Part shown: positions 19,929 to 21,260 of the stretch, one piece after another
Position numbering within the stretch: the first letter of the stretch is position 1
Layout: each line of letters begins with the position of its first letter
Origin: Dehalococcoidia bacterium
Lineage (GTDB): Bacteria; Chloroflexota; Dehalococcoidia; Bin125
Direction of reading: 5' to 3'
NCBI GenBank assembly: GCA_022825855.1
Contig: JAJDWB010000013.1
Span: forward strand, 1-64,000
DNA: 64,000 nt
Program-made: the position numbers and the translations under genes
The notes under the pieces: model-generated
Told to the model about the DNA's origin: nothing
The model's database searches: none
Seen by the model: only the letters and a program-made list of their open reading frames with translations

Positions 19929-19948
19929 CCCTCTCCCGAGGGAGAGGG
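19929..19948. repeat. Palindromic repeat, copy 1
   Basis: CCCTCTCCC and GGGAGAGGG form a perfect 9-bp stem around a 2-base loop. This is the first of four copies that bracket the orphan HTH gene. A degenerate GC-rich stretch with GGGTGAGGG-like sequence links it to copy 2. Confidence 0.85.
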
Positions 19949-20066
19949 TTAGAGCCTGCCCCCGCGAAGACGGGGGGTGAGGGCCCTCCTTCGCGCCACC
20001 GCGGGTCCTACTCTCTCCCCCCTTCCAGGGGGGAGATGTCACGGAGTGACAGAGGGGGTTCCGTTC

Positions 20067-20087
20067 CCCTCTCCCCGAGGGAGAGGG
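20067..20087. repeat. Palindromic repeat, copy 2
   Basis: The same 9-bp stem as copy 1 with loop CGA, followed by CTAGGGTGAGGG. Copies 2 and 3 share this tail, so they are in the same orientation on either side of the HTH gene. Confidence 0.85.
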
Positions 20088-20186
20088 CTAGGGTGAGGGC
20101 CCCTCCGCAAACCACGACACAACACCGAACACACATTCATGTACAGTGACAAGAACATCTGTCTGACCAAGAAGGAGGCCCCAACC

Positions 20187-20873
20187 ATGCACATCACCCC
20201 CAAGCGCCGACGCCGAGCCATGCGCGTCCACTACCTCACCCAGCGCGCCAAGTCCCAGAAGGACATCGCCGAGCAGCTCAACGTCTCCAAGGCTACCGTC
20301 CGCGCAGACTTACAACTGGTCGAGACCCACTGGGCCAGCATCGCCTCAGCCGCAGCCGACGACCTGCTCCTGGAATCCCTCTCCCTGCTCCAAATCCGGC
20401 TCTCCCTCGCGATCAAGAGCGACGACGTCGCCAACCAGATCAGCCGCCTCACCTCGGTCGAGTTCCTCCGCGCCCGCGACGCCCAGGAGAGCCAGCTCAA
20501 CACTCTCGCCCGAGAAATCCGCCGCACCGCCCAGGAAGTCCAGCGCCGCGCCGCGCAGCGACCCGACCAGCCCGAGCTCTACCAGGAGGATGCGCAAGAC
20601 TTGTCAGAAACCACGCCGGAATCAGCACAAATTGATCCCCCCGATCTCACGATCTCCAGTCCAGAGCAGGAAATCGCGGTGGATCAGCCCGAAACAGAAA
20701 AAATCCCCGCCGACCCCGACCTCGACGCCCTGATCGAGGAAGCCGTCCAGCATTTCCCCCACCTCAAGGGCAAATCCCCCGACCAGATCGTCCTGTTCCT
20801 CGACCGGATCACCAACCCCGAAGCTCCGGAATCGGAGTATCCAGCCGAAATCTACGCCGAAGCCGCCGGCTGA
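20187..20873 (+). CDS. Orphan helix-turn-helix DNA-binding protein
   Basis: The 228-residue soluble protein starts with a basic patch (KRRRRAMRVHYL), then a helix-turn-helix, QKDIAEQLNVSKATVRADLQ, of the DeoR or small-terminase kind. A long charged helical region with coiled-coil character follows, and an acidic, Pro-rich C-terminal half ends with a helix containing EEAVQHFPHLKGKSPDQIV. No enzymatic domain is visible. ATG at 20187 is preferred to an ATG 16 codons upstream because AAGGAGG lies nine bases before it. Codons favour C at the third position, unlike the G-ending neighbours, and two palindromic repeats flank each side. It may be a regulator or a remnant of a mobile element; no partner gene is present. 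Confidence 0.7.
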   Translation: MHITPKRRRRAMRVHYLTQRAKSQKDIAEQLNVSKATVRADLQLVETHWASIASAAADDLLLESLSLLQIRLSLAIKSDDVANQISRLTSVEFLRARDAQESQLNTLAREIRRTAQEVQRRAAQRPDQPELYQEDAQDLSETTPESAQIDPPDLTISSPEQEIAVDQPETEKIPADPDLDALIEEAVQHFPHLKGKSPDQIVLFLDRITNPEAPESEYPAEIYAEAAG

Positions 20874-20922
20874 CAGGAATCCCCGTCCCCGATTCATTCG
20901 GAGACCTGCTCGGGTTCCGGCT

Positions 20923-20943
20923 CCCTCTCCCTTTGGGAGAGGG
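20923..20943. repeat. Palindromic repeat, copy 3
   Basis: CCCTCTCCC and GGGAGAGGG around the loop TTT, followed by CTGGGGTGAGGG. It lies about 50 bases after the HTH gene stop. Confidence 0.85.
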
Positions 20944-21003
20944 CTGGGGTGAGGGTTCCGGGGCGGAGGGGGGTCCGCCGCCTCCGGAGCGCCCTCACCC
21001 TCT

Positions 21004-21024
21004 CCCTCTCCCTCGGGGAGAGGG
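21004..21024. repeat. Palindromic repeat, copy 4 (inverted orientation)
   Basis: The same stem with loop TCG. Here the CCCTCACCC tail is on the left, so this copy is inverted relative to copies 2 and 3. Copies 3 and 4 form a head-to-head pair downstream of the HTH gene. Confidence 0.85.
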
Positions 21025-21163
21025 GACCGGAGCGAGATTGCCGGGCCTGTTCGGTTGTTTACGAAGGGTTGGCGGCGGGTCGGTTATCTTATGCCTACCG
21101 GTGAAGCAGGACAGGCGGCTGTCAACGTGCTTGTTTGCACGGGACACTGGGATCAGACGAACC

Positions 21164-21186
21164 GAGCGCGGCCTTGTGCCGCGCTC
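21164..21186 (+). promoter_or_regulatory. Hairpin in the long guaB3 leader
   Basis: GAGCGCGGC and GCCGCGCTC make a perfect 9-bp stem with a 5-base loop, 75 bases before the guaB3 start. There is no T run after it, so it is not a standard terminator. The gap from 21025 to 21260 holds no gene. It contains this hairpin and a further GC-rich self-complementary stretch (about 21188-21225). No known riboswitch class was recognised. The leader could be a transcript structure or another repeat remnant. Confidence 0.4.
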
Positions 21187-21260
21187 ATGCGTTTAACGCC
21201 GGAACGCCGGTCTGGCGCCACGGCCGCTCGCAGCCGCACGCAGCTCAAAGGGGGAGCCAG

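Follow-up and report, generated by a model that had tools for sequence, protein, structure and literature searches.

The locus described here raises the question of why a gene for an HTH protein lies between four copies of one short palindrome in the genome of a Dehalococcoidia bacterium (G000). The stretch of DNA analyzed, referred to here as the window, comprises 64,000 nucleotides. A first-pass annotation of the window had read the layout as a small mobile cassette or as a palindrome-dense hot spot into which the gene moved.

The palindromes are dispersed REP-like repeats

The following repeats flank the gene.

19929..19948, + strand: REP-like palindrome copy 1, loop GA (pattern search); left edge of the DNA missing in relatives (gap comparison)
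20010..20062, no strand assigned: further dispersed palindromic repeat, CTCTCCCCCC...GGGGGGAGATGTCACGGAGTGACAGAGGGGG (read by eye)
20067..20087, + strand: REP-like palindrome copy 2, loop CGA, with GGGTGAGGG tail (pattern search)
20923..20943, + strand: REP-like palindrome copy 3, loop TTT, with GGGTGAGGG tail; opens an inverted doublet with copy 4 (pattern search)
21004..21024, - strand: REP-like palindrome copy 4, loop TCG; inverted partner of copy 3 and right edge of the DNA missing in relatives (pattern search and gap comparison)

The pattern CCCTCTCCC-N2-3-GGGAGAGGG has exactly four matches in the 64-kb window, against none in 100 shuffles, which bears out the annotated two copies on each side of one gene. 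The copies had been called two pairs of identical palindromes; their arms are indeed identical, but their loops differ (GA, CGA, TTT, and TCG), so they do not form two identical pairs. The annotated orientations hold, with copies 2 and 3 co-oriented and sharing the GGGTGAGGG tail on the same side, and copy 4 inverted. Judged by eye, copy 1 is oriented like copies 2 and 3, and a further palindromic insert displaces its tail. Copies 3 and 4 lie 81 bp apart as an inverted doublet, a spacing which recurs at C13:89410-89491 adjoining another HTH copy (L006), and further palindrome pairs in the genome are 79-96 bp apart.

The whole genome (2.82 Mb) contains 96 palindrome sites, compared to 0 for the backward control, and 40 of the 61 genomes searched, across the class and including other families, contain matches. 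We therefore conclude, in agreement with the annotation, that the palindromes are ordinary dispersed REP-like repeats: a short palindrome in many dispersed copies is what characterizes REP/BIME elements, and this is what we found. REP/BIME elements are described as short dispersed palindromes with doublets in alternating orientation (PMC2817692); the family here differs in being GGGTGAGGG-tailed. Repeats like the one at 20010..20062 adjoin other HTH copies and, by eye, also stand alone in gaps of relatives. Between 19800 and 21300 no Rfam match reached a family's own score, and the weak matches, to a short sRNA family and to miRNAs, coincide with the palindromes. Elsewhere in G000, seven palindromes lie within 2.6 kb (C13:290711-293342, L017) without an HTH copy.

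The HTH gene belongs to a dispersed, genus-level family

20172..20178, + strand: ribosome-binding site AAGGAGG (read in the sequence)
20187..20873, + strand: HTH gene, 228 amino acids; N-terminal HTH, two long helices, disordered stretch at residues 130-176, short C-terminal helices

Judged by eye, the gene likely starts at the ATG at 20187, behind AAGGAGG, rather than at the ATG at 20139. The AlphaFold2 model of its product consists of an HTH and two long helices, with predicted disorder at residues 130-176. The gene had been annotated as an orphan, a description contradicted by a protein search that returned 11 homologous places in the same genome, the window's included (seven at 76-100% identity and four at 36-47%). 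The annotated difference in codon use is a weak claim: GC3 of the HTH gene (0.80) is below that of guaB (0.92) and metG (0.95), but rsmI (0.78) and hisS (0.75) are equally low.

Protein matches were found in 11 of 61 genomes, namely 10 of the 15 genomes of the genus and one of a sister genus (G017). Four genomes contain 8 or 9 matches each, while G014 contains 20, contig-end fragments counted. No match was found in G003, G004, G007, G008, or G013; the genomes are drafts (G003 is 89% complete in 470 contigs), so the absence in G003 is soft. A scan of named genomes with a single HTH sequence gave no match; the HTH alignment recovered 43 loci, every one in a record titled as a Dehalococcoidia, Chloroflexota, or Chloroflexi MAG, and from the isolate names we take these to be sponge associated. 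Within the genomes searched, the family is thus confined to this genus and to distant copies in one sister genus.

A protein tree (69 rows, with long branches flagged) contains species-specific bursts: ten G014 copies form one clade (100/97), and seven G000 copies together with one from G011 form another (100/99). The other subtypes mostly number one per genome, although G002, for example, has three. Overall, the HTH family is dispersed and amplifies within species. The counts of loci below refer to 73 HTH loci, 10 of them cut short by contig ends, with five matches lacking a usable start left out (L072, L098, L100, L102, and L110). In some subtypes a SEC-C-like cysteine motif closes the protein (4 of the 21 members scanned; L015, L107, L108, L124, and others).

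Gene and palindromes are separable

We compared the gaps occupied by HTH genes with their counterparts in relatives; the names rsmI, guaB, glnA, ilvC, uvrB, and LLM and FAD oxidoreductase used for genes of relatives are presumptive, read from translations. guaB was found in all 15 genomes of the genus, and in the upstream stretch compared an HTH gene is present in two, on the + strand in G000 and on the opposite strand in G014. These two genes are 65% identical, and that of G014 belongs to the G014 clade. Two HTH clades have entered this gap, each in a different species and on a different strand. Nine genomes of the genus retain metG-rsmI-guaB synteny without an HTH gene; in this comparison contig ends interrupt G003 and G010, and rsmI is unmatched in G005 and G012. 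The rsmI-guaB distance is about 220 bp in G011 versus about 1,360 bp in G000; inspected by eye, the additional DNA of G000 spans palindrome 1 to palindrome 4. The window's HTH DNA is thus missing from this gap in relatives, which therefore offer the empty sites that the annotation had proposed to look for; in G004, a different palindromic repeat occupies the same spot.

Two further places have a similar history. At the L006 site, two of the 13 orthologous loci (G000 and G005) have an HTH gene, and several others contain other repeats or a short gap. At the L009 site, behind a response regulator, 6 of 14 genomes continue straight into glnA, and others contain different inserts, some with the leader; since glnA of G000 is found on the opposite side of the regulator, a rearrangement has taken place here as well. 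These comparisons indicate that some gaps are repeatedly used by HTH units and repeats. The annotated hot spot or mobile cassette thus survives in part, in the extra DNA and the repeat-collecting gaps, but the palindromes are not cassette ends.

That the HTH family might always be enclosed by palindromes is contradicted by the counts: an exact palindrome lies within 600 bp of 17 of the 73 HTH loci, on both sides in seven (all in G000, G001, and G005), and 56 have none, including all 32 in G002, G006, and G014, although the contig-end cuts at 10 loci may hide some. Nor do the numbers of palindrome sites and HTH matches per genome run together (27 versus 0 in G008, 58 versus 1 in G009, and 3 versus 6 in G011). 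Thus palindromes dense elsewhere, and HTH relatives without them, are largely what we found, but in G000, G001, G005, and G010 palindromes do adjoin HTH copies. Eight loci of these four genomes have a palindrome some 120-127 bp ahead of the start codon, perhaps through shared gaps or joint duplication. The HTH copies become homologous on the gene side of palindrome 2, at the CTCCG of a leader.

A shared leader precedes HTH genes, RAL genes, and non-coding elements

20103..20164, + strand: conserved leader with CCGCAAACCACGACACA block, where homology between HTH copies begins
20127-20138, + strand: putative operator-like GAACACACATTC
20142-20147, + strand: putative -10-like TACAGT
20153-20164, + strand: second GAACATCTGTCT

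In most HTH copies the leader consists of CTCCG..AAC, CGACACA, a GAACN4RTTC box, and a -10-like TAYANT, with a second GAAC box in HTH genes of the window's type. When at most two substitutions are allowed, its first block precedes 57 of 73 HTH loci, including 31 of 31 of the window's type, compared to 0 of 63 control flanks. Six more HTH loci have it with three or four substitutions, and it is missing even with four from the remaining 10, four of them in G017. A 29-mer of the leader occurs in G000 eight times exactly and twice with one mismatch, and is kept even where the proteins are 45% identical.

A sequence-only model of the leader, R1, matched the window at 20105-20162 (E 3.2e-14). R1 sites number 25 in G000, 27 in G014, 22 in G002, 14 in G005, 9 in G012, 8 in G001, 7 in G006, 5 in G011, 2 in G010, and 1 each in G004 and G017; the remaining 20 of the 31 genomes have none. 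Among these 20 are G003, G007, G008, G009, and G013, of which G009 has one HTH match and the other four have none. In G000 the sites comprise 10 HTH genes, 8 non-coding elements, one site at a contig end, and 6 members of a second gene set, here called RAL, two of which precede a terminase large subunit (TerL) gene. RAL genes are small acidic genes whose products carry the motif A..NGP.YVR..AL..LAR..GL and an acidic tail often ending in DEDEPP. Since R1 was trained on HTH, RAL, and one non-coding leader, the other non-coding matches are the independent ones. Across genomes there are 59 leader loci other than those of HTH genes, of which 54 were classed by eye as 23 non-coding and 31 RAL loci (L159, L166, L213, L227, and L233 were omitted). 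Our data indicate that a promoter-like leader is common to most HTH genes, to RAL genes, some of which precede TerL, and to non-coding elements.

Some non-coding leader elements precede the same downstream gene in two species (G001 and G002; G000 and G006). They lie upstream of ilvC-like genes (L199 and L223, in G000 and G006), alcohol-dehydrogenase-like genes (L211 and L217, in G001 and G002), and a uvrB-like gene (L235, in G002), and may also regulate these genes.

Solitary terminases adjoin RAL genes

RAL-TerL units in G000, strand not given: L306:3295-5089 and L310:4219-6415
Other loci: L301, L302, and L311-L314

Each of the eight TerL genes found in the loci examined, two each in G000 and G002 and one each in G004, G005, G006, and G011, lies directly behind a RAL gene or is overlapped by it. 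The TerL of L201 matches Pfam Terminase_3 with 33.8 bits (cut-off 23.2) and PHROG phrog_2 with E 7e-24, and all three TerL proteins scanned matched Terminase_3 and Terminase_6N above cut-off, with PHROGs also confirming all three. Read by eye, the Walker and nuclease motifs are intact in all eight. With matches to the ATPase and nuclease domains and these motifs, the genes have what identifies a large terminase. In the variable loop of two TerL ORFs (L165 and L302) the sequence RGEMSRRDRGG apparently represents an in-frame repeat insertion.

Although encoded immediately ahead of TerL, as a small terminase would be, the RAL proteins lack a convincing profile match; none of four scanned matched a Pfam or PHROG small-terminase (TerS) family, and hhalign gave a very weak probability of 6% against one phage TerS. 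The neighbors of RAL-TerL units look metabolic by eye, and no portal or capsid gene was seen by eye in the ORFs beside the eight TerL copies. G004 contains a leader-RAL-TerL unit and no HTH match, which indicates that HTH genes are not obligatory partners. Against annotated phages the best TerL identity was 26%; three viral contigs reached 38-47%, where ORFs that read by eye as TerS and portal genes adjoin TerL. Judged from these identities, the phage relatives of RAL-linked TerL are distant.

A DNA element lies inside the HTH gene

20649..20677, + strand: in-gene inverted repeat ACGATCTCCAGT-N5-GCAGGAAATCGC, common to non-coding elements and kept with unusual codons

HTH genes and non-coding elements share a consensus inverted repeat, ACGATCTCCAGT-N5-ACTGGARATCGT, or ACGATCTCCAGT-N5-RCWGGARATC with a degenerate right arm. 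All 31 HTH genes of the window's type (type A) that reach the element scored at least 21/22; a score of at least 18 was reached by 11 of 23 non-coding loci and by none of 31 RAL loci, which served as the control, with the consensus drawn from some of the sequences that were afterwards scored. Across 43 distinct sequences, pairing of the arms was 0.75 in register versus 0.25-0.38 when slid. Direct repeats phased at 10 bp often precede the inverted repeat: lag-10 repeats of at least 0.7 occur in 19 of the 23 non-coding loci and, among non-A HTH genes, in 16 of 36, compared to 0 of 62 flanks and 0 of 31 RAL loci. In the window's own gene type the arrays are weak (0 of 29 strong). The shuffle z-scores for element and 10-bp repeats ignore the relatedness of the sequences.

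Within the element, 28 type-A genes use ACG for Thr (28/28), AGT for Ser (24/28), and CCA for Pro (27/28), whereas elsewhere they use mostly ACC, TCC/TCG, and CCC. The element falls within the disorder predicted by AlphaFold2 at residues 130-176. Given the unusual codons and the predicted disorder, we conclude that the element is kept for its DNA (or RNA) rather than for the peptide.

Comparison with small terminases

The predicted architecture of the HTH protein fits an HTH, a helical hairpin, and a variable C-terminus, the plan given for small terminases (PMC9611059). Homology was not detected. No TerS profile matched above cut-off; one of 21 members matched PF10668 at 21.1 bits, below the cut-off of 22, and PHROG TerS families gave only E 0.09-0.21. 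A profile comparison of the HTH alignment with one phage TerS gave no match, and the HTH profile against solved structures gave six matches, none a terminase. Fold matches were generic, comprising DeoR-type HTH and helical hairpins and no small terminase, and no small terminase was among the best 50 matches listed in the VIA fold list. NCBIfam returned mostly generic HTH names, none above cut-off for the window's protein. We rejected a phage origin by way of homology of the HTH protein itself, for which viral contigs contained no relative.

Phage small terminases such as P22 gp3 and SPP1 gp1 would resemble the HTH family, as predicted here, in their N-terminal HTH, hairpin, and variable tail, and in (putative) recognition DNA inside or at the gene, with direct repeats in pac; P22 pac is placed within the TerS gene (PMC9611059) and direct repeats in SPP1 pac (PMC4737164). 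The same sources describe TerS-pac binding as weak or hard to detect in vitro (PMC9611059) and the SF6 HTH as having little preference for pac repeats (PMC4737164). In contrast to P22 gp3 and SPP1 gp1, the HTH genes here have no sequence or fold match above cut-off, are multi-copy and dispersed, and do not lie beside TerL, and no capsid genes were seen beside the TerL units. RcGTA gp1-gp2, as described in PMC6854486, has a small TerS without an HTH beside TerL in the host chromosome, a layout like that of RAL; here there are several scattered copies, no structural cluster seen, and dedicated repeat elements. PICI and PICMI phage satellites are chromosomal units that depend on packaging functions (PMC10803314, PMC6092414), whereas the units here comprise one or two genes, with no integrase noticed in those read, and number 14-27 leader sites in the four richest genomes.

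A proposed packaging-like regulon and its alternatives

Our data give good support to a genus-level dispersed regulon that includes solitary terminases; its function we can only infer. We tentatively favor a phage-derived, DNA-packaging-type regulon dispersed over the chromosome, with the HTH proteins as small-terminase-like subunits, a reading that most simply connects leader, TerL, and in-gene element and to which we give somewhat less than an even chance. The HTH protein would be a recognition subunit binding the element in its own gene, as P22 pac sits in its own gene, with RAL-TerL as motor and nuclease and the non-coding elements as further recognition sites. One repressor, possibly LexA-like, would switch HTH, RAL-TerL, and non-coding units through the GAACN4RTTC box beside the -10 sequence. 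The HTH copies would have spread, or been swapped, between intergenic gaps that also collect unrelated REP-like palindromes. The absence of the in-gene element from all 31 RAL loci, and hence from RAL-TerL units, runs counter to this reading. So do the missing TerS match of the HTH protein, the very weak one of RAL, the lack of portal or capsid genes seen beside TerL, the G004 unit in a genome with no HTH match, the weak 10-bp arrays in the window's own gene type, the 10 HTH loci devoid of the leader block, and the published difficulty of showing TerS-pac binding and repeat preference. LexA control of the leader is only suggested: the region upstream of lexA contains only GTACTGATGTTC, a poor match to the box.

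If the packaging-type regulon is correct, a symbiont lineage would maintain terminases and scattered recognition sites in the form of a chromosomal regulon, not of a prophage, and the exact start points of DNA transfer could be predicted. An unlikely extension of it is a chromosome-wide packaging program, capsid-independent or with capsids supplied remotely, in which 20-odd pac-like sites and recognition genes, a few terminase motors, and one shared inducible promoter would let the host cut and export or exchange its own chromosome from many defined points. The literature searched on orphan terminases, and on sponge Dehalococcoidia with terminases, contained no description of a regulon of this kind as gene-transfer machinery. 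Even if the packaging reading is wrong, a DNA element both inside a disordered protein segment and free-standing would be an unusual case, a gene with its own putative binding site.

A somewhat unlikely alternative is an expanded family of ordinary autoregulated transcription factors with a LexA-like operator, the terminase pairs being phage remnants under the same regulator and the in-gene repeat an operator of the gene itself or an mRNA element. The HTH domain is closest to DeoR/sigma-r4 types, GAACN4RTTC boxes overlie the leader promoter, and non-coding elements lie at conserved places upstream of metabolic genes, all of which fit such factors. However, bursts of up to 10 copies within a species would be unusual for plain regulators and intact motifs in all eight TerL for phage debris, and the HTH copies are solitary with no common target gene seen alongside, although five (L006, L011, L052, L060, and L070) adjoin paralogues of an LLM-type flavin oxidoreductase gene, perhaps by chance.

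Rather improbable, in our estimate, is a transposon-like family in which the unit from leader to stop codon is a non-autonomous element mobilized in trans, the RNase H-like TerL nuclease perhaps serving as recombinase. Empty sites in relatives suit it, as do the different HTH clades on opposite strands of one gap (G000 versus G014), homology beginning at CTCCG in 10 leader-bearing copies of G000, and several HTH matches that stop at contig ends, as repeats do. Yet inspection of the 11 own-genome copies by eye showed neither terminal inverted repeats nor target duplications, nor a right end that is consistent between copies; we noticed no transposase gene among the units read, and terminases are not known to act as transposases. 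The annotated cassette bounded by palindromes is highly improbable: the seven loci with palindromes on both sides, and the two 3' palindromes that L005 and L006 have in common, are outweighed by counts over the 73 loci and over genomes, where the palindrome abounds even with few or no HTH copies, and we rejected it on these counts.

Upstream region of guaB

No Rfam match reached a family's own score upstream of guaB at 21063-21260 of the window. Similar hairpin-like blocks in this region (e.g., GTGCTTGTTTGCACG and GAGCGCGGCCATGTGCCGCGCTC) are kept across the genus genomes compared, and they possibly represent a regulatory leader RNA.
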